A DNA stretch of 64,000 nt from assembly GCF_000003605.2 (NCBI RefSeq), contig NW_003136839.1, forward strand, positions 110,012 through 174,011. Direction: 5' to 3'. This document shows, in pieces, positions 1 to 62,656 of this stretch. The stretch comes from Saccoglossus kowalevskii. Lineage: Eukaryota > Hemichordata > Enteropneusta > Harrimaniidae. Position 1 is the stretch's first letter; each line of letters opens with the position of its first letter. The position numbers and the translations under genes were made by a program. Under the pieces are notes generated by a model that saw only the letters and a program-made list of their open reading frames with translations, made no database searches and was not told the DNA's origin.

Positions 1-286
1 GTATGTACAAAGAATTATTCGGAACCTTGGGTCAACTAGGCATATATTAATTGTCTTCACGGTTACGATTTTCAATTCTGCTGCCGGTGAACGATGTACT
101 TGTATAAATTATGATAGCAATAAATATACCCCCATTCTATATTAGTCCACCCGTCACAGTGGCTTCAAATGTGCTGTCAGAGTATGATTCTGGCGTTGTT
201 GTCTGTTCTGACTACAATGCAGCTATTGATTACAGAACTAGTAGTTACTCAGTTTTGTAATATTTCTTTTATTTTTCGTTTCATAG

Positions 287-11633
<11,347 letters not shown>

Positions 11634-25785: not shown

Positions 25786-28700
25786 TAGTGCTGCCTGTTT
25801 TACGTAAATTGTTTTCGCCCTCATCTTGAGATATTGAGAAGAGAATTGAAATTACCTACTAATTAGATTTAGCTAATGTATAGTCGACTATCACGAATGG
25901 GACGTTTCTCAAATTTGCTGACGGTGAACTCCTAGTCTCTTAGAGTTAAATGAATCTCACAACTGGCTCAGTGAATGTCACTCCTTATTACAAGACGTTA
26001 TAAGTGGTTTACGCCACGTGCTGTGTTTACCTGTATTTACGTTTTCATACTGAATTGCTGTTGAAGAAACACTTCTTGATTAAAACAATCTACCCGAGTA
26101 TTTATGTGGGAACACGTCTTTATGATGACCAATTCCCTGGGATTTCAATGGACTATTTCACTGCTTGAAATGACCAACACTATTTCCAATGTGTTCAATC
26201 CGGCAACGTAACAAGATCATGCACACCACAAAACACAGAAAATTAATTTAAAGATTATTAGTGGAGAAAAATATAAAAAATTTTAAGAAACTTATGATGA
26301 ATAAACGGATAAAATAGTTTTTTTATTTGGCTACAAAATTTGAGTTCACATGCTGCTTGGCATTTATTATCATATCATGGTGTGTTACTCATATAGCATA
26401 GCCTTGTACATCGTCACATATTGTATATATTAATTCAAACGTAATATAGTATACAGGAAAATTCAGCAAAATATTGTTTTAAATTTTTTACTCTCTTTTG
26501 ATCGACGTTTTATTTAAAAATAAATTCGATTTCACACTGGAACAGACATATAAATCACTTCGTAAGAGCAGGAGGAATTAGAATTTTACTGGTATGAGTT
26601 GTCATGGCAATATATACAACTATGTTTAGAATCAAAAGCTTTTCAATGAGTCTGTCTATCACACCACTCAGACGACAGCCAGTGATTGACTGATCACACA
26701 AAGTATTTACTATTCATTTACTATTCATTATATATTATTGACAAGAGTGTTGTTTATTTTGGAATCAGTAAACAATGTATTCAATCGAGCATATTGATGT
26801 GGTCAAGTAGTACATGACAATTCCTTTTGCCAAATTTCTAGAGAATAATAAAAACGTGCAAATATCCGTGAAGTTTGTCTGCCAGTGCTACAAACTATGA
26901 AAATAATGTATTAGTAGTAAACCGAGACAAAATGCCAGAAACTATGACAATCTTTCAGTCACAGAAAGCCTTACCAATTCCACGGTATTATGAAACAGAA
27001 AATACGATATTTATATTAAATTTTTTTGAAACTCCGATCAATAAGACATTGATACATAGTATGACCATTTGTAAGTCTGAAGAACGTTGTTAACAATGAA
27101 ACACACGGCATCATACAATATCCAAATTCTTTGAAACTTGTGTGACTGATTGGAAAAGGGTAAACATTTAAATTTGTTCTGAAAATTTGCAAAGGTATAG
27201 TAGCCCTCAACGTTCACACACTTTGAGCTGTCTAAGGTGAACCACTATTTTAGCCGATGAAATAATGGATAAATGTAGAGCGCTAGGCAAAAGATGAACT
27301 TTATGATTGATGTGGGCGCTTATATTATAAACCCTCAAAAAGCATTTCACTAACTTAGAGGTCGTTGTTTGTAGAACCCACAATTAAGGTGAGTTGCAGG
27401 AAGGGTCTTTCTCAGAAACAGAGCTAAATGAGCCCTGAAACGAAAACCAGTAGTAGCATGTGAACCGTGGGATACACACAAATGTAAATCACCCTCAGAT
27501 TTATTCATGGGTTCAAGATTGCTGTCTCCTGAAATTGGTTCAATCTTCTCGAAAAACAGAAAATATGGCGCCAAGAAGGTATGTTGAATCGTTTAAGGGG
27601 CGGTAGTTGTCGCGCATCGCGTGTTTGAATATCATGTAAATAAACAATGTATTTTACACGCGTTGTATACGTCACTATGAGTCACATGTCGGACAGGACG
27701 CGGTGCGACGACCACCGCCCTTTAATGCACAGTCTTGACCTATTCATGAATGTCTGTTTCTACTTTTTATAGTAGAGTGTCTAATTCATTTAAGAAAAGC
27801 AATACAAAGCTTTGATCTAATGGAGAGTAGGGGCATTGATAAGATGACTTTTTAATGTGTGTCAAAATTATAATACTTCTTATTGAATCTGTTCTATCAA
27901 TAAAATCAACATCATCTCTTACCTTTCTAACTGAATGTCTCAGAAATAATGGTTCATTAAGCCGTGGTTGAGAAATAAAGAATGACCATATTTACAAAAC
28001 TTTATAAAAATACGATGGTTGTAATTCTGGTGTGCACCATGGAAATATTAAATAGTCTTTATGGACTAGTCCAGTCCATGGCCTAGACTGCCAAGTAGAA
28101 ATTGACTAAGTACTGTTGAAGGAAAGGAAAATTACTATTTACATAACGAAAAGTATTCTATGAGATTAGAATATAAACATGAAGAAAATATTACGTATAA
28201 TAATAATATAAACGAGCTACTGGTACTACGAATTTATATGCAGAAGAAAAGAAACATATGCAGAGAAGTGGGAAGTAATCGAGGAAATTAACAAAGCAAA
28301 TAATGTTTTATTTTGTATTTAAATTTGTTTATATGTTGTTTATATTTTTAGGGAGTCTGGAAGTGAATTCCAGTGTTTCACGGCAGCAAATTTAAAATTA
28401 TGTTGTGAAACTGTAAGTTTAGCAATAGGAATTAAAAAAATTACCAACTAGACGCTGACTTTGTGGGATGGCAATGTAGGTAATCATTTACCTACTTATT
28501 GAGGCACAAAGTTTGTGAATATCAAGTATGTGTAATTGAATAAAAAGAGGAGCAGAATGTGCTTTAAAGTACGAGAAGCTGATAAGGCGCACATTTTTTT
28601 TTTGTAAGAGCAGATGGAACATGTTGATTATGCTAGATACAAATGCATGTGCATATGGGACTTGGAGACACATTTACTAGGTGTACAAACATTGATATAG

Positions 28701-28795
28701 TTGAAAAACTTAGGTTGATTTGTATGTCCTATCACAAGTTTGTCATCTAGAAAGCAGTTCATAAATATGCTAAAAGCATGTTGGCAGCCCATGCA
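25785..28795. repeat. Direct duplication, copy B
   Basis: Partner of 16675-19285, same orientation, 9.1 kb away. Differences include a 124 bp insertion at 27597-27720 and unrelated text at 27980-28480. A 72-codon open frame at 26875 (NRDKMPETMTIF, PIPRYYETENT) is conserved in wording with copy A, where it is cut short; I do not call it a gene. Copy B ends where the first DIRS-type fossil begins. Confidence 0.8.
27597..27720. mobile_element. 124 bp MITE with TTAA-containing target duplication
   Basis: Ends ggggcggtagttgtcgc and gcgacgaccaccgccc are inverted repeats of about 16 bp. Both flanks read tttaa (27592-27596 and 27721-27725). The matching site in copy A (about 18350) reads gaatcgtttaattcac without the insert, which is the pre-insertion site. 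TTAA targeting would fit a piggyBac-driven MITE; a 5 bp TTTAA duplication is equally readable. Confidence 0.8.
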
Positions 28796-28834
28796 GATAA
28801 AATGTCCTTCTGTGCGAGTCTACTGAAAGTCTCC

Positions 28835-31800
28835 ATGCGTGTTAGTGGTGGGGTTGGAGCAGCAGATCTGGGATGTTCGGAAGCATCACTGGTGTCTCAA
28901 CTAACATAACAACAGTAGTGGAAATCAGGCCTTGGTCGGCCAGTTGGGCGCCACCAGCAAGTTTCTGCAGTACACAGTGAATTAAGGGGAAGGGAGGAAA
29001 GGCCCACAGAATTGATAATGCGTCTATGGAGGAGTGTCACGTACGTTGGGAGCTTGGCGTTCAAGGGTGTGGCAAACAGGTCTATCTTTGGACCATCCCA
29101 CAGCCGAAACAGTTTGGAGGCTACCCATTTCGCTATCTGCCACTCTGCATTCGGTATCTGCCACTCTGGGTACTGGAACAAGAAGAGATGTGCCTTGACC
29201 GGATCACTTGGTTCATTCTCGCGACCCTGGTACGACAAACTTTTGTTCGACCAGAAGGGCAAGGGTGGATGGCCAAGTTCCATGGAAATTTTCGTCAGCT
29301 CAGTTAGAAATAATTCACTGCGCCCTGAGAGTGGAGTTGCAACCAATTAAATTTTGTTTGTGGCCGGCACACTGGAGCGTATTACTTTGCATCTCCAGGA
29401 CACGGAAATCTCGAAGGCAGAACGCACCAGCCTCCTAGACCAGCATACACAGCTGTTGGCGGAACATCGGCACGGCTATGTGTGAGACCCTGCAGTGTCA
29501 TCTGGCTCTCTGAGTTATGGGGTGCGTCATCGCCTTAGTTATGCAGACTGGACCTCCTCCACTTTCTTTGATGGGGAGGGAGCAGTCACGAAGCTTGGGG
29601 AGGCCACCGACCAGATGGTACAGGTGGAATCTGCAAGCCAGTTGGCTGCTGCCAAGGGCAAGCAAAGAGGAGCCCAAGATGTGAAAACACGTCAACACAC
29701 GCAAGCAAGAAGGCACTCTCCTTGGTGGAACTGCCAAACCCATGGCCAAATATCCCTGTTGTGCTCAGATTGCGCCGGTGTATTCCGGCTTGGAGGCAGT
29801 GGGTAACCGATCCCTGGAATGTCACACAATTACGAAATTCAAAGGATTCTGAATGCAGGATAGAAAATCTGGTGACAAGTCTGGGCTTCTACTCACACGT
29901 CTTTGTAGTTCAAAGGCTACAGGTGGCTGGCGTCCAGTTTTGGACCTAATTTAACTCGGTATGTGCCCCTTGATCGATTCCGCATGGATACAACAAGCAC
30001 TGTCTTACTCTCTGTTTACCGTTTTGAATGGTTATCCTTGCTAGACTTAAGCGATGCTTACATGCACATATCAATGCATCCAATGAGTCAGTGACTACTT
30101 TGATTCTCCCACTTGTGCCAAGTATTCAAGTTCAGTGTGCTTCTACTGGGATATGCACGGTGCCATACATGTTCACCACAGTGTTGAAACAGGTGGTGCT
30201 GATGCTGCATGTTCTGGAGAGGAAGTCACCGCAAGAGGGTGTCTGCTTGACCGTTCCGCATCTCTGGAAGGTGGTGTGCAGTTAGCTCAACAGTTAATTT
30301 CAAGCACCAATGGAGAATTTGTTCCACCAGAACTGAGAGCAATTGGGATTTTGTCCCCCACCCTTCTCCTTGTTAATGTGGGGGACCATCGCTGTGTTGT
30401 CTGTGCAGGTAGAAAATGTATCAGTACTAAGTGTACTGCTTTCAGCTCAAGCCAATTGATATGGTGGCCCCGAATCCAAGGTAGGGGCCATATTCCTTGG
30501 GCTTGTACGTCCAATATGTGCGCTCCTAAACCTGGGAGGGAGGCATCTATTATCAGAGTCATAGCTGAGGCAAGTGGGTCCAAGGGAACCCCCTGCCTAA
30601 GGTTGGTAATTGCCATCCAACTATGCTCTCAGGGCGTGGTGGATTGTTTTGGACTGAGCTGCCGAAAACAATTCACGGAAAGCAACCATCAATCCTTGCC
30701 CGTCCCGCCGAATGAAAGTTCATGGTACCAGAGTCATGAGAAGGAACCGAGGGATCCAGTAAAGACACAAGGTCTCGCACCATTTCTGCTGGCTCCAGTA
30801 CCCGACACCAAACAGATTGTATAGTGCTTAGTCCAGCAGAAAGAGGTAAGCATAAGATTGCCCCATCCTGGGGCCTTATGATTAGACTCTTCCACAGGGA
30901 ACCTTCGTCCAGCCATCAACACCATCTCAGCGACGTCCCAAGGACATTTCACCCATACTCGCATTCCACTCACTCAAATCCACAAGGCCCCAACTAAATG
31001 CACGACTAGTCCGAGCTCAGGCATTGCTACATGCAACATGTACATGGTCCCGGAAAATATCCCAGGTGTCACAATCCCAATGGAAGCACATGTCCTTGTG
31101 GCAAAACCCTGAAACCCAAACACATTCCAAACAAAGGCGACATTTACTATTGGGGTTCCAACTCAGGATATTCTGGTGGCGACTGCCGCACGACTGAGTC
31201 AGTCTATAGGGCGACAACCTAGGATGCGAGGAGGTCTTACTTGACTGCTTTTCTTTCTTCCAGTCCATTTTTAAAAACAACACTAGGAAAATGAACAAGG
31301 CATGCATGAGTGGAACGAAATGACAGTTGAAACAAAAATGTAGACAAACAAATGTGTCCCCTGTGTTTTGTTAGCGGTACACACAAAGAGACATGGGTTC
31401 CTAAGTAAAAAAATCCTACTAGCCTACTGTTAGCAACAGCAACAGGAGTACCTCAGAAAACAAGAGTTGGCAGAGCCATCTCGATGCTGGAAAAATGAGA
31501 GTATTTAAAGGTGTGTTTGGAGCAATGGATTGGCGAACATGCAGAAAAGCAATTTCAAAAACTTTGACTTTGTTTTAATGAAAACTTGAAGTATACATGA
31601 GGGTACGTATTATTAATTATTTATTTTAGAAACTCCATTTTTAATTGAAGGAATTAAACTAAATTAAATGATCATGTTAGAAATGACTACTGTTCAACTC
31701 CGAACGTTTAATTGTACTTAGCGTATGTTACTTTGACAATCAACCAATTCGAGAAATGACTAAATGCATGGTCACAGCCAAATCGCTGTTTAGTTGAAAG

Positions 31801-33500
31801 AAAACAATCAAGGAAAACAGAGAACTCTGAGACAGGAAGAGAAACACGAGCGATGTATTCGAACAAAAGGCATTACGGCAGCCAAGTTTGTTTTACCTCG
31901 ATCAATGCAGTAATACCCACGATGCACTATTCCCATAAGCGTGGGTATGTGCAAGTTCATAGCCAAGCGTACTGCGGTCAAGAACAAGATAAGAAATTAC
32001 GTGACGGGACCATCCCGATTTTCCGTCGATTTCCGGGGTTGGGTACGTTTCATACAAGAAGATCGATACACACTACACCACCGAGTGTAGTAGACATAAT
32101 CCCGATGGCAATAGGAAGTTCGAAGTAAGCTAATACAGTTGATTTATAACAGACGAAGTAAATCACTTTTCAGTCCTCGTTGAGACACAAACGTAATTTA
32201 ATATACACTTCTACAGTTTGACTAAAGTTTACAAACACCACGGTCAGTCACACAAAGTTCCCAAATTCAAAAGGGATTTTTAAATGCACCGGGGAACACG
32301 AGACGAACAATTGTGCGTACTTTATAGATGACGACTCCACGCTACACGCAGCGTAAAAATGGCAATTTAAACTTTGTTTGCAGATTTTCCCGGGCAGATT
32401 TACATAATAATACAGTTCGATAACACGGCCAGTCACATAAAATCCATCAAAAGAAGACTGCAAGTTGTATAATGCCAAAACAGTACCATGATTTCACAAC
32501 TTTTGAAATATGTTCGTTTTTATCGACGTCCACTGTACAACAGTTTAATGTCTTCCCGTTGGCAAGAACACAAAGCCTAAACTATCAGAAATTCGTAATA
32601 CATAATTCGAGTGATGGAATAGCATAATTACTCATCATTTGTAAATTCAATCCATCGAAAAAGTATAAAAAACATTTTTATGAACAATTTGTATTATAAA
32701 TACACTTTGAAAAGAAACAAGTTTCATAAACATTAATCTATTTGAATACATTCTCACTACAAATTACACAATACTTATTTTCTATTGAACTTTTTCACAG
32801 CACAAACTATTGGAATGATGCACATGTGTGAGTACTTCGGTGACACATTTTATTGCTACGCCTAAAATAGTCCATCATTTATTGCGCAACTGTGACCACA
32901 CGACATCATCCACACATTTTCATAAAATCTCCATGTACTTTTTGACCTTTCGTAAGTAAAATACACTACAATTTACTCCAGAAAAACAATTTTCTTGGTA
33001 CATTCTTGCATACTAATGAGGGGTTCAGACACATTCCAAGCTGAACAATTTTCTTGGACTAATAACAAAGCTGGTCAATCCTTTCCCAGCAATAACACAA
33101 TGAAACCTGACAATGTGGCCCATGTTTTTTTGTTTTGTTTTTGTAAGCAGTGCACAAAAAAGTCACGGGGCTGCTAATAAAGAACATTTATTCTACCAGC
33201 CACTACGTCTACTGTTACCAACAGTTACAGAAACTTCAGAAAAACTAGGTCGAAAAAACTGGAGACTGAATCGCACTGTTTTCACTACGTTGCACCTCAA
33301 TGCGGAGAAAAACAGAGTGAACATTAGGCATGCTGGTCGCTGACCTTTTGACCTCAGTCATGTGTTATGCGACGTGGAAGAAAATCTATGAGGTCATGGG
33401 GCTTCCTCTAACCTAGATTAGTCTCTCAGTCATTGGCTGAATAGCAGATTAATGCCTACAATTCAAAATAGTCATTTTGACTGAGAGTCTATGGTCGGTA
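28835..33500 (-). mobile_element. DIRS-type retroelement fossil 1 (rearranged, 3' truncated)
   Basis: Parts seen: RNase H tail region on minus at 28897-29346 (IDLFATPLNAKLPTYV); a reverse-transcriptase piece on plus at 29880-30230 (SLLDLSDAYMHISMHP); the RNase H core on minus at 30240-30616 (IIDASLPGLGAHI, LELKAVHLVLIHFLP); a plus-strand copy of the RNase H tail at 30640-30830; and one inverted terminal repeat at about 33345-33495, matching that of fossil 2. The recombinase and the other terminus are missing. The opposite orientation of neighbouring pieces shows internal inversion or joining of two copies. The stretch 31300-33080 shows no recognised parts and may be a later insertion. Old, with many breaks. 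Confidence 0.75.
31350..33080. other. Unassigned stretch inside DIRS-type fossil 1
   Basis: No gene or element is recognised. Open frames at 31853-32128 and 32248-32478 have no recognisable domain. Confidence 0.35.
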
Positions 33501-33680
33501 ACTGAACATAGTAAATTATACCTATCTCAACCCCAATCCTAAGACCAAGACACATATCTATAAACCCTACCTGTACCGACCCTAACCCAAATGACAAGAC
33601 ATATTTGTGTACATCTCAGGGTGGAGATTAATGCAAATTTGGTGTTAGCTGCTTGTGTAAACTTAGACAGAGGATTCTCC

Positions 33681-36600
33681 GAACCTGCCTATTCACATAG
33701 TTCATACCCACTATATACTCTGGTCAGTCAAAATGACTATTTTGAACTGTAGGCATTAATCAGCGATTCTGCCGGTGACGGAGAGATAGAATCTAGGTCA
33801 GGGGAAGCCCAATGACCCAAAGATTCTCTTTCCCTTACGTCACAAACCACGTGACAGAGGCCATATGGCAGCGCCATTAACGGCTGTACAATCACTCCGG
33901 TTCCTTTCTCTCCGCCTCGAGGACTTAGACCAACGCTACGGAAAGAGAGGGGTGGTTTGGGGGACCCAGAGTCTATGGTGGGTATGAACTATGTGAATAG
34001 GCGGGTTCGTAGAACCTTCTGCCAAAATTCACTACGTTCAATTACCCACCATAGACTTCGGCCAGTCAAAATGACTATTTTGAACTGTAGGCAGAGTCAG
34101 GCGCCGATAGGTGGTGGGTTTTCCGAGCAAACAGAAAAATGATGAAAGTCGTTTCCCAGTCCGGGATGAAATACAATAATCAGTCAAACCCTAGTTAAGG
34201 CCCAAAAAAGGGTGGTGTCTTACCTTGCCTGGGCTGTCCCTGGAGCAAGAAGCCAAAATGTTGCTACGGTGACAGGGTTTGGTGTGCCCAGGAAAGCTAG
34301 ACCCCAAGCCAATTATGGGGGGTAGTAAGCTTTCGAAGTAAAGACCAAAACAGTTCTGCATGAGGGCATAGGCCGCAAAGCGGGCCTGGGAGCTTCCAGG
34401 GGAGTGATGACGGTAGAGAAATCTGACTGCATAAAATGCCGAGACTGACTTATTGCCTATGCGCAGGAACCCTTGTGGTCGTTCGGGCTGGGTCAGCAAA
34501 CCAAGACTGACCCACTACGACGGGACCCAACCTAAAGAGACCTTCCTCAATGGATTCGGTGTCTGTTAGGTGGTAGTTGATAAAGACGTTCTGCGTTCTC
34601 CAGTAGCCTGCCCTCCATGTATGCTCGAGGGGGGCACCTGACGCTAGCACTAGTGAGTTGGCAATCGCACAGACCTCATGCGCTCGTACTTGGTGTATCT
34701 GCAAGCTCTGTGTCGAGGAAGTTAAAGTATTATAGACCTCTAATACAGTCGCAGTAAACCACCTGGTTATGGAAGTTGGGGAGGCCGGCCTATCCTGCCT
34801 GCCTGGGCCGAAACATAAAGATATGTGCATGGCACCAAGTCCTGAATCTTTAGTACGGTTTGGGAGCAACTCCGTGCTAGAACCGGGCAGAAAAGCAATT
34901 CCTCCTGACCCTCCGGGCAGACAAAAATTTGACAGCTGGGGGATGACGATGGGGTGAGGATCGTGTCCTGGAATTTGGTTCTAGGCAAGAAACCCAGTTC
35001 ATGTCTTTTGCACAACTTGATTGTCCATAACGGCGGTACATCATCCGAGAAGGACAATGCCCCCAGCTCTGGTCAACGCCTACCTGAGGCGAGGGCCAGT
35101 AGGAAGACTATTTTCCATGTTAAAAAAATTGAGTGATACTGATCAGAGAGGCTCAAAGGCAGTCTGCTTAGAACGGACAACACAGCCAACAAGTTCGAGT
35201 TGGGCGGTTCCCTTCCCGTCTGGAAAGTAGTAAATAGTCTCCTAATAATAGGACAATTGGCTAGTCTTGTTCCCATACGTTTTCAATGGTGGGGGACAAG
35301 GCCGACCCGTAGCCAACGATCGCTGCGTAGGAAAAACCTACTTTGTCAAACAGGTGGACGAAGGAGCCTACTACCTGGCCAATAGAGGGATGGTATGGAT
35401 CAATCTCCCTTCTGCTACACCAATCAGTGCATGCACGCAGCTTAGAAATGCAGGCTGCATTGGTGGAATCCCTGTTCACCCTGGCCAGGACGTTGGCAGC
35501 CCGCTCGGATAAAGCCTTTGTATGTGCAGGTCTAATGAGAGCCTGTATGCGTGTAAGTGATATCTGATGGGCTCATTGGTAGTGCGCCGTCTGGTTGAGA
35601 CAGGTCCGGTAAGTCTGGAAGCACTATTGGTGTTTCGACTAGCATTTTCGACAGACGTGGAAACTAGGCCTTGTTTGGCCAAATGGGTGTGACCAATAAA
35701 AATATGCAGGTATGCAGGTATTTTCTCCGGTGCCCGGTGAACTAGTGGGAAGGGAAGGAAGGCGTACACAACTAAGTGGGTTCACGGGGTTAGCCAAGTG
35801 ACCCTGGCCCAGGTTCCTGAAGTCGGCAGGAGTGTTACGTTCGTCGGGAGCTTGGCGTTCTAACCTTGGACTGTCCTACAGCCGAAACAGCCTGGAGGCT
35901 TGTATCAGCCACCCCGTGTTCTGGAAGCAGAGTCTGCCATACTGTTCCTCACCCCTGGAAAGGTGGTGTGCGGTTAGCTCCACATTGTATTCCAGGCACC
36001 AAAAGAGGATTTGCTCCGCTAGGACTGACAACAATGAGGAATGTATGTCCCCCCTCCTTCTTGAAGGAGACCACCGCTGTGTTGCATGTGCGAAGCAGGA
36101 CTCTGTGGTCTTGAACTACGGGTAGAAAGTGTGGTAGTGCTAAGTATATTGCTTTCAGTTCGGGCCGGTTGATATGGTAGTTCCAAAACTACTGCGGGCC
36201 ATATCCTTGGACTTGTTGATTCAGTAGATGCGCTCCCCAACCTTGGGAGGAGGCATCACTTACCAGAGTCATACCTGTGGCGAGCGGGTCCAAGGGGCCC
36301 CCTGTCAGAGGTTGGCCAGTGACGCCCACAAGGGCAGGGCTTCCTTCACTTGGTCCCAGATCAAAACCTGCCTATCTAGTTTCTATACTTCGACCAAAGC
36401 CCTCAATTCGGAGGGAAACCCGACGCCATGCAAGGAAGGGTCCACAAAGGGACTCACAATGGCCCCATAGGAGGAAAGCCTCCAGGGGCACAGCCTTGCT
36501 GCAGCTGGTAAAATCGGGTAAACCACTGAGACTGTGAGGATGCCCTCCGATCAGCAGGGGTAGGCCGAGAAAAAATATCGGTACCACCGCCAACAGGCCT

Positions 36601-37450
36601 CCTACTCGACGTCCCGGTACACAAAGCACCGGTAGCCGAGCGTGAAAACTTTCCACTCATGCCAAACACACAACTCACTTTAACCGATTAGTTTACTGGA
36701 CACGCGACCTTGCTGTGAAGAAACGAGCAATCTCAGACCTTAGGCCTCCAGTGAAAAATGCCTTCACAGCAAAAACCCCGAACCCGCACAAAGCTACGAC
36801 AAAAGTATCTCGGATGCGGGTTCTATGCTGGTAAATTCTGAATATAGCCACTGCACAGTCGACTCAAAACATTAGGAGACCCAAAAAAAAAAAAAACGGC
36901 AGCGAGTGGTGCCGTCATTACATCTATACATTTCTAAACACATTGTAAATAAAAGACGACATGCATGAGGGAAACGAAATACAGTTGTAAAAGGTGTCGC
37001 CGCGAAACCAACAAGTGGTTACGTAGTGGCACCAGGTTTTAATTTCTTTGTTGTGAAAAAAACATTACACACAAAAGGGAAAACGACACGAGGGTAAAAA
37101 AGACAAGAAAAACTTATCCTACCAGCTAGAATGTCGGATGCTGCGGCAATAACCAACGCTAGAAACCCGGACAGCAAAAAGCAATTGAGCCAGGCAGAGC
37201 CGCTCAAAATCATTCCCGACAAGGCGGAGATGAAAAAAGAGTGATTGTACAGCCGTTAATGGCGCTGCCATATGGCCTTGGTCACATGGTTCGTGACGTA
37301 AGAGAAAGAGAATCTTGGGGTTATGGGGCTTCCCCTGACCAAGATTCTATCTCTCCGTCATCGGCAGAATCGCTGATTAATGCCTGCAGTTCAAAATAGT
37401 CATTTTGACTGACCGGAGTCTATGGTGGGTAATTGAATGTAGCAAATTCT
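33681..37450 (-). mobile_element. DIRS-type retroelement fossil 2 with ITRs and internal complementary region
   Basis: Inverted terminal repeats lie at 33721-33897 and 37239-37418, about nine-tenths identical. An internal complementary region at 33971-34096 is complementary to the sequences at the two outer ends of the element, joined. Between them, on minus, are RNase H (about 36300-35830; WGAHLL- and LKAIYLALPHFLPV-like text) followed by tyrosine recombinase (about 35570-34400; LTWKIVFLLALASG, CPVLA, RAHEVCAIA, GYWRTQNVFINYHL). Recombinase downstream of RT/RNase H and inverted ends are DIRS hallmarks. At 3.8 kb it is shorter than typical DIRS elements; most of the 5' coding part is gone. 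Broken many times and old, though younger-looking than fossil 1. Confidence 0.85.
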
Positions 37451-37899
37451 ACCATATCCAATCCTGACCTTAATGGTATGCACCTATTGGTAATCTCTTA
37501 CTCACAGAATTTTCCAAGTTGAGATGATATAAAATAATTTAACAAGAAGTTGTTAAATTGAGAGAATAAATGTCCGGACAAATATTTAAGAATTATTTTA
37601 ATGTAAACAACTCTTGTTTAATTAATTTCCTGCATTGCAAGTTCTTAATTTTATGTTATAAATGTATCCTTCGATACTTGATTGAATTTAAAGACTTCCT
37701 AAAATAATAACTGCTGAATTAAAACCCGGAAATGTATCTTCTTTCTCACATTGATGAGTGTGAATAACACAATCACAGTTTAAAACTTTATTTTTCTGGG
37801 AATCACATAAACTGAAAGTAGCAAGAAAGTTTCAGTAGTTCAAAAAAATACAAAATCTTTTACTGGTTCAAAAGTGTGTGTATATCTACACCTCTACAC
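37451..37899. other. 3' flank of INTS9
   Basis: Contains the INTS9 poly(A) signal AATAAA on minus (37787-37792). The remainder is AT-rich with nothing else recognised. Confidence 0.6.
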
Positions 37900-40825
37900 C
37901 TAAAATTTAGGTAAACACATAATCAGTACATCTCTGAGTTTTTTCCGAAGAGTTTCATTTCCCTCACAAAATATATGCGTTGACCCCTCTTCAACTTGGA
38001 TAATGGTATCTTCTGATGGCTGCGAATAAATGAAAGATAAATTAATACACTGCTTTGCTGACTCTTGGTATGTCTGTGGTGGCAGGCAATGTGTTTAACG
38101 ACAGAGTAAAGTTTGTGACAATGTGGACAAGTGGAAGGGTATCAATGATAGACTGTCAATTATGTTGACAGAATAGAGTTTCAAGTGATAGCGCCATCAG
38201 TTGGTTTCCATACACAAATAGAGGGGTTGGTATCCCTGGTTCCAGGCATTCTGGTGAGCTGGCTATCGAACATTTACTCAAGAAAATCAATCCCCCACAC
38301 ATACAAACTTGGAACATCTTTTTACCAGAGCGTGCAAGTTCCTAAGGTAACGGCGGAACTCAAAACTTGTATTTTAATGTTGCCATAGTTATGTAAGAAT
38401 CATTGGCAAAATATGATAGACTGGAGGTAAAATACAACTATTTTTGATTAAAACATGGTGAGGAAACAAGAATATTCATGTCATGTACATGTATGAACAT
38501 CTGACAAATTTACATCATTTCGTAAAATAGTGGGGGGTCAGTACTGAGTTATAAAATAGAAATTACTCCGACGATCACTGTGCAAATTTTGTGTAAACAA
38601 ACAATAAATTTTAATATATGTGTTGTATATTTTCTTTGAACTCGTATGAAACACAACATACAGCAATAACAGTGGTGTGTTAATTACATGTTTATGATAT
38701 CAATAGGGAACAATTGTAATATATTAACACTTACTAAATGTACAATATGTCCTCCAGGAGTGTCTTCCACCTTCATATCAGTCACTCCATGCTATAAAAA
38801 GAGAACAAACCGTTATTAATATCAAGCTTTTGTTGAAACTATAGTAAAAATAATTATCTTAGCTGACTTTTGACTTCTTTGTGCTGCATGGTCACCGATT
38901 TGCTGACAAATGTAATAAATAGATATTATATGAGATGGTTTAATAACGACAGTATATAGCTACATGTATGTTGGGATTTCCTTAGTTTCCATTATATTAT
39001 GTCAGATTTCGACACACTTTTGTACCAGGGATCAAAATCTGACCATTATAATAATAGTATGACAAGGTAATACACAATCTCAATGTCAACAAGAACTGGC
39101 TGAACACAAGCACCTGCACATCTTAATTAACCAAGATAAGAAAGGGAATATAAACTTGTTTTTGTTATTTGACATTTTTTTTCTCATTTTTGTTGAATTT
39201 TCAGTGTTTGTGTGTCATGTTATTTCATCGTTATTGCTGTAGTAATGTGAATTTCAGTCGTGGCAGTTTTTACTTCGTCTGGTTGTTTTGAGTCGGCAAA
39301 TATGCAAGTGAGTGAATAAATGGATGGTTGGACTGTCCTAGCGGCTGTTTGTATTATTGAGTGGATGTGTAGGTGAATACTCATCATTAATTGTTTAAAC
39401 TTTGAGACGTATCAGCATTAGCATAGGTAGCCTGGTTACCTCACAACTTAAGAAAACATGATAATACTTTTTTTGCAGCTTCCTCACCTTTGTCAAGTTT
39501 CTTACAAAATCTTCAATATCCAAATTGCCATAGACATAATGTTTTGGATGTTTGTTGATTATTTCCTCCTCACCTCGCTTACGCTTTTTACCGACAACTA
39601 CTGGTGCCTTTGGTAAAGGCTACAAACAAAGGTGAAAAAATATACAACTGCAAATTACTGTATATAACCATTTATTTTCAGTGGAATTAAATTTCACTAT
39701 TATAATAATAATAATAATAATAACTTTAATGCATCCTTAGAAATACAAATGTTCTATTGGTTTACAGCAATAAATATATAAGTGATAATTTGATAATTTG
39801 TTGTAATTAAACCAAGTTTTAAAGTTTGCAAACTTCTATTGTTTTGTTCTTTTGTTATTTCACATGCTCATGTGGATTTAATTTTGCAGATTTTACTTAT
39901 CGATGAATTAGGAAAAAATAACAACCAGTGAATAATTTACAGTAGTTCACAAATGAGGGCGAAGGTCAGGAAAAATACAGAATGCCAGAAAATATTATTC
40001 AGATTAAATATGTTTTAATTAAATATGTGCCAAAAATCATATTGAATGGTTGTAGCGGGTAAATCATAAAGTATCTGTGAAAAGTTGTATTCTATAATTC
40101 TACACATAGATTTAAGCATTAGAAGCACAACTCAATAAATACTATATATAGTATAGTATAAATGTAATACACTACCTGTAATACATATTTATTGTCTTTT
40201 ACAGTAGTGCTCCCCGTTATGGTGGATACAAACAACTCCAGATTTCATTTCAGTCGGCTCTAGCGTTGATGCCAGCTGCAAATATACAGATAATTGTATA
40301 TTCTATATTGTGTAACCAAAATGAGTTTATATCATCACCATGGGATACTAAAACTATCAGAATGTAAAACATGTGTTGAGTAAGATTACCACTATTTCAA
40401 AAATAATTTGTAGCAAATTAATGAATTTTTAATTGACATATTTTATGAATAATAAATAAATATTTCATTTTTTTTCGGAACAAGTGATCAAAAAACTAAA
40501 TACAACACATGTTTTGTCACTGTATCATACTACATATCACAATACATCTAAACAAGTTTGTAAAAAAGGGTAATACATACCTCTGATGTGATTTCAATTT
40601 TCTCTTGTCTTCTTCGCACAGGTAGGGTTAGAACATCTGCTCTTTTGAAAGGAGTGGGAGGAGGGTCCTGAAAATGTAATTATTAGTCTCAAAATTATTT
40701 TGTTCAACTCTACAAAACTTAGCATCCAGTATGCACGAAAGAGAAATACTTATTGGTTTGTATTATTTGCTTGTAATTAGGCTTTCGATGCTTTTCCGCA
40801 TCGAAAGCCTTTTGTAATTGTAAAG

Positions 40826-57095: not shown

Positions 57096-60000
57096 TTATT
57101 TCTTTTGGACTCCCTTCCGAGCTCTCTTTAATGCCTTTATAATGTTTGACGCCAATACCTTCGTACCCGCCTTATTCAAATGTGTTAGGTCTCTTTCGAA
57201 AAAACAAACATTCTGTAATCTGGTATGTGTTATGAATCTGACTCTCTCCGTTCTCGCAGACATTTCTCTTATCATGAAGTTGACGCTTGAGATCTTCCAA
57301 TTTGACATGTGATCATCGCCTCTGGGCAGGATATCGGAGATGTAGACGTCAGCTGAAGGAAAATTTGATTTAGCAATTTCAATAACTTCACACATATTCT
57401 TCGCTATCTGATAGGCAAACTTGTTTGTGAACACGTCATCGCTACCAATGTGAATGATGACAGAGTTCACGTCACTGGATCTGTGATCTTGTAATGCCTG
57501 GGCAGTTTCCGCAATTGTTGAAACCCGGATTTTTGTACATTCTCTGTTTTTTCCAATTTTGGTGGGATCTATATCCCTGATAACCTGGTCACCAAAAATG
57601 ATCAGGGCGGTATTAGTGTCTCGTCTCAGGGCCGATTGTCTGATGTGACCTCCTTGCTTCACGTTCTGAATTTCACAGTGACGGTACGATGAGCTCGGAC
57701 ATGTTTGTATATGAAAAGGATTCGTTAAAATGCCAGCCTCAGGCGGATCTGTAGTTGATCGATGAAGTTGAAGGCGGAAATCTCCCAAAAGTGAATTAAT
57801 ACGTTGCATTTCTGACTGAAATCTGTACTTAATTGCGATACGCTCGCCCTGTTCAACAAGTTTTAGTCCCAGTATGTACTGGCATTTAGCGAGCTCTCGG
57901 GTCTCCTCTATTTGTCCCAGGCGGTAATGACAACATGCTTCTGTAAGAAAACTATGACATTCGACATACTTAGACGTGTATCTAGGATCCTGGCACGTTG
58001 AGTAATATCTTTTTAATATTTCATCAGCTCTAAAGAGCTTCCGACTGGCATATTTCAGAGGTAATGCCCTCCCCTCAGGCGAGTCACAGTTTAACAAGAT
58101 GAGAACCATTCTCTGCAGCATTCGTTGTTTCAGATGATTTGTTAGAGCAGGGTGTGTATACTCTAACATATGCAAACCATGTTCCATTTGTTCGATGAGA
58201 GTTTCCTGAAATGAATACACAATCACTTAGTGCAAATACTCTGACCTTGATCGTGGTAAAACATCATATAAATAACCATCCATACAATATGCTTTGCGAG
58301 GCTATAGAGACCTGAAATCAATCAAGTAATTTTAATTTACTAATTTAATTTAAAATTAAATAATTAAAATCAAACTATAAATCAATCATTCATAAACTAA
58401 TTAATTAACCAAAAAACATTATTCACTACATCACACAGCGCATTAACATTAATTAAATAACTAATAATTAAAATTATTAGTCAAATTCTACTCCAGTTAT
58501 TTGTTTTCCACATAAAATAAAAATCATTTGTAGGGAACAAATAATTACGTAAAAAAAGTTGCTAGAGTTCGATTCACTTTGTCTGGTGAATAATTCACGT
58601 GTCACCGGCATACAACTGGTATTATAACACATCAAGGTAAGCTTTGCTTGAGACATATATTCATAAGCCAAGAAAGTGAAAATACTGAGTAATTTATATA
58701 TATAAATACAAAAATAAAATCTTTAAATATCGAGAAAATATCTGTTAAATAACGAGAAAAAAGGTCTTCGTTATTTTATGACTAAATATATGTATACATG
58801 TATATGTGTGCTTACATTTCCTTCTTGAACACCTTGTTTGTATTCAGTATACGCTTTGTATAAAAGAGTTGTTCCATGCCAATAATAAGGTTGGAAGTTC
58901 TTGAAAATCTTTGAAATAACCAATACATCATATTAGCATAATTGGTTATGCGTAAAATGAATGTATGTCTAATTGACGATTTGGGATTGTTAACGAAAGC
59001 GTCTGCGAGGATATGGATGAATACGGCTCTGTATGTTTGTGTTATTTGTTTGGATTTGTTTGGTGAATAATTGAGCACGATCGGTGCTAATATATGTACA
59101 CATTCCAGTATGTTCATGTTGAGGAAAACATGGGAAAAAAAGGTTTGCTTGAATGTGAAACAGGTTAACCTTGTCGCCAATCGTTTTAAAACTCGTTTGA
59201 ATATTGCCAGAATTCCTAGAAGTAAATGCCAAAAGTTAAAGGGAAATTTATCTACTATAATGTGAAATATTTTTTTTCTGAAGAAGAAGAAGTGTAGTAA
59301 GAAATTACCCACCTCCAATGCCTTATCCAAATAAAATGACGATTTGTTGAAATTCCCCTCTTTCACGTATCGATATCCCTTAATACTATACAGCCTGCCT
59401 TTTAACATGTTCTCGTTGTCTGCCCATTTCAACATGTTGTACCCTTTAGCCAGCAAATTATCAGCTTCGTTAAACTCATCGTTCAAACAGGAGCAAATTG
59501 ACAACTGTGGTGACAAGACAGTGTTTATAAGTATTGGAACGATATAATTGCACAAAAACCAACACATATTTAAAACTTCTTACTGGTCACATATATAGAT
59601 CAAGATCATTGTTTACATTACTGAATGAGAGACTGCTTGCAGGTGGGGATAATAATTAGTTTATCACAAATGATCAAAATTAATCCGCAATGTCCGCAAA
59701 CCAAACCGCGAACACTATAAGTGGGGGTCCCTTAAATAGAACCTTGAATCGCCACAAATACGCGTATGCCTTGGGTAGCGAGTGGTTCTGAACACGATTT
59801 TCAAGTGTGTTTTGCTGTTTTCACTCTTTTTTTTTGGAATATAGTCACGTGACTGCTGAAGTCTATATTTGTAAAATAGGTAGCACATTTACCAATAAAA
59901 CAAAATCAGAATGTCCAGACAATGAAAGGTCGAAAAAATGTAAAAATAGTTATGTGAGAGAATTTAAATTCATATTTATATATATAACATATTTATATTC

Positions 60001-62656
60001 ATAAAATCTCCAATTGTAATTGTAAAACCTCCATTTATATTCAAACCTCCATTTTTATTTTGTAAAATCTTCATTTTTAATTGTAATACAAATTTGCATT
60101 CACAGTTTACAAATTGAGGTTTTATGAATATATTTGTGACATTTAAAAATATGAATTTAAATTCTCGCACATAAATATTTGTAATGAATATTGCAAAGCT
60201 CAGCCTTCCATACTAGACCCTCAGAAAGGTTTCACTTTCTGTTTAACTTCATTCATTGATGGCCAACATGGTAATCGAGAAAAGTGATCGAAATTTCCCA
60301 CTGCACACCTTCAAGTCACGACCTACAACAAACAAAGTTTCATAAGCGTCTGACAAATTATTTCTGAGATTTGGATGGCCAAATAATCCGCTGCTTACAT
60401 ATATAAATTGTTCCACGATGATATCACTTCTTGATTCCATCTTTTGCTTGAAAAGTTGAGTTTTATGCTCACGCACTTCAGACCATGACCCTAGTAATTA
60501 AAATACAGAAACAATACATATATATATCTCACCAAAATAACTAAACGACCCGTGATATTTTGTGGGCAAAATGCTACTTTCGATTAGCCGAAATGAAAAG
60601 GGCAAGGAAAAGAATATTGGGTACAATTTTTATCTTCAACGTTAACTTATTTTTGTGGTTTTAATGAATAATACAAATTATTTGTTCAATTGTCTAAAAT
60701 GAATAACCACATCATCGCATTGTTGTCCGTTATGTGTCTATGTAAAGCACACACACAATTAACAATGAACAACTTAGTTCGAAACCTACCACTTAATTCA
60801 TAGTGTCCGTTATTGGTGTAGAATACTAATTAACCACTATTTATAATGGGAACTTCTTGTTTTTCCAGTATGAGCTGAGTTAGTTCGACTTGGTATGTGA
60901 GAAATCAATTGCCGAGTTGATACTATAGTATAGACAACTTTCCCAGAAGTAGCAATACTGGGGGGGGGGGGGCAAAAATACTCCTTTCTCATGGCGGAAA
61001 TATACAAACATGTCAGTTTGCTGATAGTCAATATAAGGGAATTTTATTTTTGTGACGTCGATTGGTCCACCCAGAAGCACAATATCACACGTGCAAGTTT
61101 ACGTTACACCCCAAAACGACACGCGCGCGCATACAAAACGCCATATCTTCGTCTGTTAACTCACCGCATTGCATGAGATTCGTCATTTTGCAAATTAAGG
61201 TAAAGTGGTTGTCATCCTTTAATATATCTATTGAAAAAAAATAATTGATATGACATGATTCATATGATTAGTTCCAGTCACCTATGTATAATTTAATGTC
61301 CAGCTACATCAAAAGGTTGTTGCTCTCTGTGAGTTTCCTTGTTGACATTCTGGGTGTGACGTCATTAGAGAAACAGCAAAGTGTTTAGTTGCGCGTCAAT
61401 AAATATCAAACAAGTCATTGTATTGTTACTTTAACTTCATATGACAGTTAGGGATAACTGGTCCAGCTTGAAATATGACAAGTTGTTAATTTCATAAAAT
61501 GTTGTTTTGATACACAAGAAAATAAAGACAAAAACTCAATCGGAAATACCTGGGACTATCTTCACTCATAACACGCCGATACACAATTTGTATTATCAAA
61601 ACAATATCAAAAAGCATTTTATAAACACGCAAAATAGAGCTATTAACAGACTATGAGGATTGACCACCGTTTACTGGGATTGTGAATGGAATACGACCTA
61701 TGGAATATCGCTTACGGCAAATACATTGATTCTGTGCGCAAAGGACTGTGGGATATTTAACTATTGTTTGTGCCGTCAGTCAAATAAATAATCATCATAC
61801 CTGTGACTGTGCTGGCTGACCCTGGTTGAGGAATAAGTTTAGCGTATTTGATGCGATTTTGCAATGTTCTCATCACTGGGATGCAAACTTCACCCGGACT
61901 TGCAAAAAATGACTCTGTGTGTTGAAAACAAATATATAAGTTCCACGAAAACGGAGAAAGTTGACATTCTTTCCAACTAACCATTATATCTCTGATTATA
62001 CTACAGTAAAAAGTAATCTAAAACAAATAATTCAAGATGCTATTTTGTACTGCTTTACTTCCGTTCTCGATATTTTAAATTACATTACACGACATTACAT
62101 TACATTACATTACATTACATTACATTACATTACATTACAAAATAGACTAACAAAGAAATGAAACAAATATACCTGAGTGAAAGGTTTCGATGAAATGTTT
62201 CATAAATTCGGGATCAGTAGCATCAAGTATGGGGTATCTCGTAGCATTTAGTGGAAGCTTATCCACTGTCAGACCAATGAGCACTACGATGACGTCATTC
62301 TTCTCAAGTTTAGTTGAAAAAGCTTGCTCCATGTCGTACTTACACTCACCAGAATGGACAAATGTGTCGGATAATGCTATGACAATTTTCTTTGACTGCT
62401 TAATACACTTGAAGAGATTTTCGCTATTGTAACAACCGACGTCATAGTCTCTCTCAGCATACAGGCATCGTATGTTATGTTTTGACTCCAACTTGTGCAC
62501 AAACTGGCGAACCCATCTCGCATCGTCACTGGTTTCGCAGTCAGTGATGATAAAGAGGTCACTTTGTGCGGCAGTGTGCACGCCCTGGGGGTTTTGTTTC
62601 TCAAAATTCACGTTGTGGGCGTTTTCTAAAGGCTCTGTAACTCTGCTAACTGCCAT
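57096..62656 (-). CDS. TIR - TPR-like - SGNH-hydrolase-like protein (six exons, 694 aa)
   Basis: Exons on minus: 62656-62173, 61914-61801, 60490-60399, 59504-59313, 58908-58816, 58205-57096; phases 1,1,0,0,0 agree and the frame stays open to TAA. ATG 62656 has an in-frame TGA upstream. Residues ~31-155 are a TIR domain: SDLFIITD (strand A), LYAERDYDVG (BB loop), KQSKKIVIALSDTFVHS, CKYDMEQAF. Residues ~235-294 fit a TPR pair (KGYRYVKEGNFNKSSFYLDKALE is 23 residues in the sequence; its GNF and KALE are the landmarks), and helical repeats run to ~465 (CCHYRLGQIEETRELAK). Residues ~524-690 match the SGNH/GDSL fold: IIFGDQVIRD, VIIHIGSDD, YISDILPRGD, DLTHLNKAG. Catalytic Ser of block I is Gln532 and block III Asn is Asp, while Asp664 and His667 remain, so hydrolysis is unlikely. 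No signal peptide or membrane segment: probably a cytosolic signalling or scaffold protein. AATAAA overlaps the stop. I know no characterised protein with this order. Confidence 0.85.
59940..60182. mobile_element. MITE, ~240 bp, in an intron of the TIR gene
   Basis: Left arm tatgtgagagaatttaaatt to ttcataaaa (60006) is repeated inverted at 60119-60176 (ttttatgaata, then gaatttaaattctcgcacata). The interior has short repeats of cctccattt. Confidence 0.75.
62080..62140. repeat. (ATTAC)n microsatellite
   Basis: About ten pentanucleotide units (acatt) in the first intron of the TIR gene, 33 bp below its first exon boundary. Confidence 0.95.

Follow-up and report, generated by a model that had tools for sequence, protein, structure and literature searches.

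A predicted TIR-TPR gene of Saccoglossus kowalevskii whose last exon continues into a LINE ORF1-type SGNH domain

We examined a 64,000-nucleotide stretch of the genome of the hemichordate Saccoglossus kowalevskii (the window; contig NW_003136839.1, positions 110,012 to 174,011), and in it a predicted gene on the minus strand, at 62656-57096 of the window. Six GT-AG exons of this gene join in phase into 694 codons and a stop. We observed that the last exon of what is otherwise a TIR-TPR gene continues into an SGNH domain, one of the kind encoded in open reading frame 1 (ORF1) of long interspersed nuclear elements (LINEs, which are non-LTR retrotransposons) of the same genome. The explanation as a whole towards which we lean, with modest confidence, is that a LINE-type pseudo-esterase has been domesticated on a TIR-TPR adaptor.

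The C-terminal 193 residues matched two SGNH models in Pfam, Lipase_GDSL_2 (PF13472, E 2.1e-5) and OSK (E 8.1e-5; with all 694 residues as query, the OSK match covers 554-644), both below the curated cut-offs, while an SGNH family appeared in none of ten controls made from the same stretch (nine shuffles and one reversal). In the PDB, the sole SGNH chain (E up to 10) was 4c1b, the ORF1 esterase of zebrafish ZfL2-1, at E 0.0055. This alignment covered the whole domain (26-184 of the C-terminal stretch against 7-169), and the other of the two rows was unrelated. With a two-row profile made from this stretch and ZfL2-1, the E-value of another SGNH chain, 2hsj, fell from 0.021 to 2.6e-6; among the 22 rows of that search, 4xyl was clearly unrelated and two were named acetyltransferase. 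The domain therefore matches both models and structures of the SGNH family.

We then compared the residues of the domain with those of the ZfL2-1 esterase. The passages of PMC3905857 on the active site give S143, D279 and H282 as the triad and G165 and N195 as the oxyanion residues, and report H191 and S228 as conserved in transposon esterases only. Both of these transposon-specific positions, which mark a LINE ORF1p esterase, are kept in our domain, as H577 and S615. Among its relatives in the genome, H191 was present in 14 of 14 readable rows and S228 in 13 of 13, along with N195 (14/14) and S143 (9/9); these counts are over 14 aligned relatives (L041 and L044 were omitted from 16), and stretches that a row does not cover were not counted. 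None of the readable non-transposon PDB chains had His at the H191 position (0/7) or Ser at the S228 position (0/6). The letters at the two positions were L/L in 2hsj, L/Q in 6njc, A/A in 9otv, M/D in 5b5s, M/T in the designed protein 9hi6, F/G in 3mil, and E in 6vjp, whose second position was not read. These were partly read by eye, and the block-I letter of 6njc, a trimming artefact, was not used.

The catalytic positions told a different story. Of the Ser, Gly, Asn and His that characterize the conserved blocks of SGNH enzymes, only the His is found. Q532 replaces the catalytic Ser, D581 replaces the oxyanion Asn and the Gly is absent, while D664 and H667 of the triad are retained. The loss of Gly is not special to this domain, since G165 is already substituted in four relatives (L029, L030, L033 and L046). 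As judged from these residues, the domain is very probably a dead enzyme. Since the catalytic Ser is lost, it is probably a binding module instead.

To place the domain among its relatives, exon 6 was used as a query (E up to 0.01) against the genome of 572,110,611 bases in 4830 contigs. It matched 27 places: itself, three through the TPR part, and 23 through the SGNH part. Internal stops were present in 10 of these 23, as expected of old transposon copies. The SGNH DNA of our gene had a single match in the genome, itself, and contained no stop. We fetched 16 of the 23 places (52 kb) and compared them with 33 other loci (296 kb, the window included, some overlapping). An endonuclease match (E up to 0.1) lay downstream of the SGNH part, in the same orientation, at 9 of the 16 and at none of the 33, the weakest of the nine being at 2.8e-4 and 0.002. 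As L034 and L042, which belong to the nine, had supplied the endonuclease profile, the independent count is 7 of 14. Four endonuclease frames were searched in Pfam, and all matched PF03372, two of them above the cut-off. The nearest relative of our domain, L029 (34% identity), was among the nine endonuclease-bearing loci. Upstream frames in L029, L030, L031, L034 and L036 resembled, by eye, the N-terminal region and coiled coil of ORF1; L030, L031 and L036 also gave weak coiled-coil-like Pfam matches. The N-terminal frame of L030 matched six places, and for two of these, on C780 and C4557, an SGNH place lies nearby on the contig. In a 12-row tree, from which six rows of the first alignment were dropped as short or long-branched, the transposon-type rows and our domain split from two outgroup chains (99/97). 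Together, these comparisons indicate that the SGNH domain is very likely of LINE-type origin.

A different origin would be an ancient cellular fusion, with the SGNH domain drawn from an animal family (texim or PAF-AH kin) and the LINEs having taken their esterase from the same source. Texim-like genes are reported from amphioxus and sea urchin, and the portion of PMC4021074 available describes them as relatives of the CR1 esterases; exchange of SGNH domains between host and transposon is plausible. However, an endonuclease adjoins 9 of the 16 fetched relatives, both transposon-specific residues are retained, and the last exons of two paralogous TIR-TPR genes end before the SGNH part. We consider a cellular origin distinctly unlikely.

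These paralogues came from the three TPR-part matches, at C2919:127151-127558, C350:70168-70593 and C2858:187245-187451. The last is on the same contig as our gene, about 14.6 kb upstream of the gene start, and contains a stop. C2919 carries counterparts of the TIR exon and of exons 3, 4 and 6, in order and on one strand; C350 and the upstream C2858 place carry counterparts of exons 4, 5 and 6. The exon borders were at comparable places, by eye. This partial exon order in three paralogous places supports the gene model. In C2919 and C350 the last exon hits a stop directly past the TPR part, and therefore the base gene appears to be TIR-TPR, with the SGNH domain a C-terminal addition. The alternative, that the SGNH domain was lost in both paralogues, would need two losses.

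The N-terminal TIR domain was matched over residues 43-147 (about 62530-62216, minus strand), above the curated cut-offs of both PF01582 (E 3.3e-9; 37.2 bits against 21.3) and PF13676 (E 9.9e-9; 36.2 against 28). Its best PDB matches were the receptors TLR15, 2, 6, 1 and 10, followed by TIR-STING, IL1RAPL, TLR3, MyD88 and TIRAP; no row named SARM1 was among the 38 PDB rows that it matched. A subset of TIR domains cleaves nicotinamide adenine dinucleotide (NAD), and Glu75 is reported as critical for this activity and as rare in MyD88 and TIRAP, in the parts of PMC7075850 seen. The catalytic Glu of the SARM1-type NADases is not found here. Its position is occupied by Asp108 (62333-62335), whereas the five TLR alignments shown have Glu. 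Across 14 aligned TIR domains of the genome, the position was Glu in 11, Asp in two (our gene and the second copy at L021) and Lys in one. This alignment omits L001, which was filtered out (Glu by eye), and the C2919 TIR, which was fetched afterwards (Lys by eye). An NADase output is unlikely on these residues, and an adaptor function is compatible with them, because MyD88 and TIRAP seldom have the Glu either.

These residues also bear on whether the protein could be an active effector, either a TIR NADase or an esterase, regulated by its other parts. Two residues of the SGNH triad, Asp664 and His667, are in place, and some TIR domains do cleave NAD (PMC7075850, in the part available). With Ser changed to Gln, Asn to Asp, and Asp at the Glu75 position where 11 of 14 TIR domains of the genome have Glu, we give an active enzyme hardly any credence.

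The middle part of the protein is less clearly delimited. Pfam gave a single TPR repeat (9.3e-4), under its cut-off. Scanning with a TPR consensus gave two repeats, at residues 225-258 (exons 3 and 4) and 266-299 (exons 4 and 5), and the best consensus score was equalled in 0.65% of 2000 shuffles. The top PDB match of the middle part, a weak one, was the designed TPR chain 2wqh (E 0.048). The protein has the TIR-then-TPR order of the TIR-TPR class, with a TPR part that is weak by Pfam and supported by the consensus scan and by C2919.

We also evaluated the gene model itself. All five donors ranked in the top 4% among the 429 GTs of the region, and four of the five acceptors in the top 10% among its 372 AGs; the exon-5 acceptor was at the 78th percentile. 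This ranking used a splice-site consensus score. The start codon has A at -3 and G at +4. Eight candidate single exons could connect exons 1 and 4 in frame, and the two top-scoring ones share the acceptor at 60490. The donor at 60309 scored first and the donor drawn here, 60399, second; exon 3 of the C2919 paralogue ends, by eye, at the point equivalent to 60399. Exon 2, for which no counterpart was found in the paralogues of the same genome, is possibly a cassette exon, since it could be skipped without shifting the frame.

The original prediction had described six in-phase exons giving one 694-residue frame, with a TIR domain at the N-terminus, TPR-like repeats, and an SGNH domain at the C-terminus that might be dead. 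The GT-AG join, the splice scores and the exon order of the paralogues bear out the frame, and the two Pfam families the TIR domain. 'TPR-like' was the right wording, given the weak Pfam repeat and the two consensus repeats. The SGNH domain was recovered through Pfam matches below the cut-offs, the controls and 4c1b, and the Ser-to-Gln and Asn-to-Asp changes agree with its being dead.

Could the parts belong to more than one product? The stretch might hold two adjacent genes, one with TIR and one with TPR-SGNH, or a TIR-TPR gene followed by a LINE remnant that is not translated. The gene model is predicted from the genomic sequence; codon usage, with the left-hand gene of the window as training set, separated exons from introns weakly; AATAAA and ATTAAA are present in the introns too; and exon 2 has no counterpart. 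Against this, C2919 has its counterparts of the TIR exon and of exons 3, 4 and 6 in matching order on a single strand, and the TPR and SGNH parts share one uninterrupted frame of 369 codons. The SGNH DNA is, in addition, single-copy and free of stops, while 10 of the 23 SGNH places have them. We consider it very unlikely that the parts are separate.

How such a protein might have arisen and might work can be proposed as follows. A piece of a LINE ORF1 would have been joined to the 3' end of the last exon of a TIR-TPR gene and domesticated as a non-catalytic module. The product would be a soluble cytosolic adaptor, as the 694 residues contain no long hydrophobic span. Its pseudo-esterase and basic tail may bind lipid, either an acidic one of membranes or a ligand, while the TPR part may hold a partner or keep the protein in a closed state. 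Binding would then lead the TIR domains to cluster with TIR domains of the TLR/MyD88 type. The SGNH domain has an isoelectric point (pI) of 9.69, and the last 20 residues include seven K/R and no D/E. The sections of PMC3905857 that deal with lipids report binding of the ZfL2-1 esterase to phosphatidic acid and phosphoinositides, and its flotation with liposomes. This flotation persists in active-site and in H191F/S228A mutants, and the authors attribute it to surface charge. Lipid binding is suggested here because the ZfL2-1 esterase binds lipid and our domain is likewise basic. By this analogy, we propose only tentatively that the protein may be a lipid-directed TIR adaptor.

The main competing view is that the domain is an Oskar-like RNA reader and the protein an RNA-sensing TIR adaptor. 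It would account for the OSK profile match in the C-terminal piece (8.1e-5), the basic domain and the lost catalytic Ser, and PMC3905857, in the part seen, cites Oskar as an example of an SGNH protein that lacks hydrolytic activity. However, L029, a relative in a LINE frame with an intact GDS, matches OSK better (1.4e-5), and the OSK match is therefore not special to our domain. The PDB profile search gave 22 rows, none of them named Oskar, and oligo(A) is not bound by the ZfL2-1 esterase, again according to part of PMC3905857. We regard an RNA reader as unlikely.

A more speculative extension of the domesticated pseudo-esterase is a self-derived detector of retroelements, in which a dead LINE ORF1p esterase on a TIR-TPR adaptor would join ORF1 particles or the membranes at which these are assembled. 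Retrotransposon activity, or viruses with the same lipids, would then lead to a TIR signal, or the particles would be blocked by a decoy. This seems to us rather improbable.

Several points weigh against the domesticated LINE-type module. The Pfam SGNH scores are under the curated cut-offs, and the SGNH fold is predicted from sequence matches. Seven of the 16 fetched SGNH loci had no endonuclease in the short flanks covered. The exact place of the domain inside the transposon-type group is left open by the 12-row tree; a 15-row tree joined it with L029 and L030 (80/90) on long branches, and put ZfL2-1 weakly with the outgroups (59/48). No endonuclease or reverse transcriptase family was found behind the gene, and no endonuclease match in the window, so that the insertion itself is not visible. 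The gene does not have the LINE arrangement of an ORF1 ahead of endonuclease and reverse transcriptase; only its domain is of LINE type. The lost Ser could instead be a sign of relaxed decay, even with an intact frame. The proposed lipid binding is an extrapolation from a single protein of zebrafish, and the joining of the exons is predicted from the genomic sequence.

The original prediction had interpreted the protein as an innate-immunity sensor or scaffold, in which the SGNH fold would read a ligand or RNA. The domain order in that interpretation stands, a dead SGNH domain is very probable, and the role of sensor or scaffold may well apply; it had missed that TIR-TPR is a known animal class and that the SGNH domain is of LINE type. 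If our explanation is true, a gene of innate-immunity type would have gained an input domain from a structural protein of a retrotransposon, with the enzyme switched off. It would offer a test case for the cellular binding target of the LINE ORF1 esterase, and for whether hosts convert parts of retroelements into sensors.

Table. Exons and exon parts of the predicted gene, in positions of the window
Feature	Position	Strand	Content and paralogue support
Exon 1	62656-62173	-	Start codon and TIR domain; C2919 counterpart with comparably placed donor
Exon 2	61914-61801	-	38-codon linker, phase 1-1
Exon 3	60490-60399	-	First helix, running into the TPR part; frames TIR exon with exon 4; C2919 counterpart
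Exon 4	59504-59313	-	TPR-like repeats; counterparts in C2919, C350 and C2858 upstream
Exon 5	58908-58816	-	TPR-like helices; counterparts in C350 and C2858 upstream
Exon 6, whole	58205-57096	-	TPR and SGNH parts in a single uninterrupted 369-codon frame
Exon 6, first part	58205-57741	-	TPR-like helices; two paralogues stop at the end of the matching stretch
Exon 6, second part	57602-57126	-	SGNH domain, residues 527-685, LINE ORF1p esterase type
Gene end	57125-57096	-	Last part of basic C-terminal tail and stop codon; AATAAA at 57100-57095

Other loci with TIR or TPR matches were also looked at. The upstream place on our contig, L035 (C2858, about 187.2-188.2 kb), has its counterparts of exons 4-6 on the same strand as our gene, with a stop in the last, and appears to be a decayed TIR-TPR paralogue or a fragment of one. 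C350 was rejected as one TIR-TPR gene, since its TIR domains are on the plus strand and the TPR relative, at 70 kb, on the minus strand. L021 (C350:40000-49999) has two plus-strand TIR exons, the first followed by a frame that looks, by eye, like fibronectin type III. L006 (C3228) has an open frame of 624 codons within the locus (694 by the TIR search), with a TPR-like part first and the TIR last, by eye, which is the reverse of the TIR-TPR order. 'Open frame 9244' at C4202, listed among the TIR matches, appears to be a run of N. No match to the TPR or SGNH part of our gene was present in 19 stretches (up to 10 kb each) that cover 22 of the 43 TIR matches of the genome (hand count); those TIR genes are therefore without the fusion within the stretches examined. 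The only contigs with both TIR and SGNH matches were that of our gene and C4557, where the two are about 30 kb apart. No relatives were confirmed in viral_contigs or genome_contigs, and scans of the TIR and SGNH pieces with NCBIfam, PADLOC and PHROGs gave no informative match.

Elsewhere in the window, the frames at 124-10565 on the plus strand encode an LDLa domain, two CUB domains, two Fz domains and a trypsin domain; they probably form a CUB-Fz-LDLa-trypsin gene for a protein of serine protease type, membrane-bound or secreted. On the minus strand, two pieces at about 37906-37998 and 38729-38791 matched the IntS9 (Integrator subunit 9) C-terminal domain, the first at 1.6e-9, above the cut-off, and the second at 0.0018, below it; these are probably the last exons of IntS9. 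The region 28000-38000 is G+C-rich, and its frames resemble, by eye, a DIRS-type retrotransposon; Pfam gave no transposon family on its minus strand.

We found no description of a TIR-SGNH protein in the literature searched, which was mostly titles and abstracts, with most subscription papers outside the coverage. The parts available of PMC8195603, PMC5094078, PMC11797021 and PMC8635717 had nothing on TIR with SGNH, and a sea urchin paper that matched a search for SGNH and TIR domain did not have SGNH in its main text. Joining of TIR with TPR is itself known: TIR-TPR is a named animal class in molluscs (oyster and Aplysia), in excerpts of PMC4346834 and PMC9334734, and bacterial group 6 TIR domains often have C-terminal TPRs (PMC7075850, in part). 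The C2919 gene is such a TIR-TPR gene, its last exon without SGNH. The passages that define the mollusc class mention no SGNH, whereas our gene adds one in its last exon.

The TIR adaptor TIRAP/Mal is placed at membranes by a part that binds acidic lipids. Our protein would resemble it only if the proposed mechanism holds; the lipid-binding parts are unrelated, and lipid binding here is predicted. The texim genes of fish, which are carried by Helitrons, are animal SGNH genes related to CR1 esterases, as described in part of PMC4021074, whose text has no word beginning with TIR. Oskar is likewise a non-catalytic SGNH domain (OSK) fused to a domain of different origin. However, OSK is reported, in the portion of PMC7250577 seen, to be bacterial in origin, while our domain is of LINE type, and the LOTUS that accompanies OSK in Oskar was not among the seven families matched by the 694 residues. 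The system closest to our domain is the ORF1p esterase of LINEs of the ZfL2-1 type (PDB 4c1b; PMC3905857), with which it shares SGNH likeness over the whole length and the transposon-specific His and Ser. It differs from ZfL2-1 in lacking the catalytic Ser and both oxyanion residues, Asn and Gly, and in following a TIR-TPR part instead of the ORF1 coiled coil.

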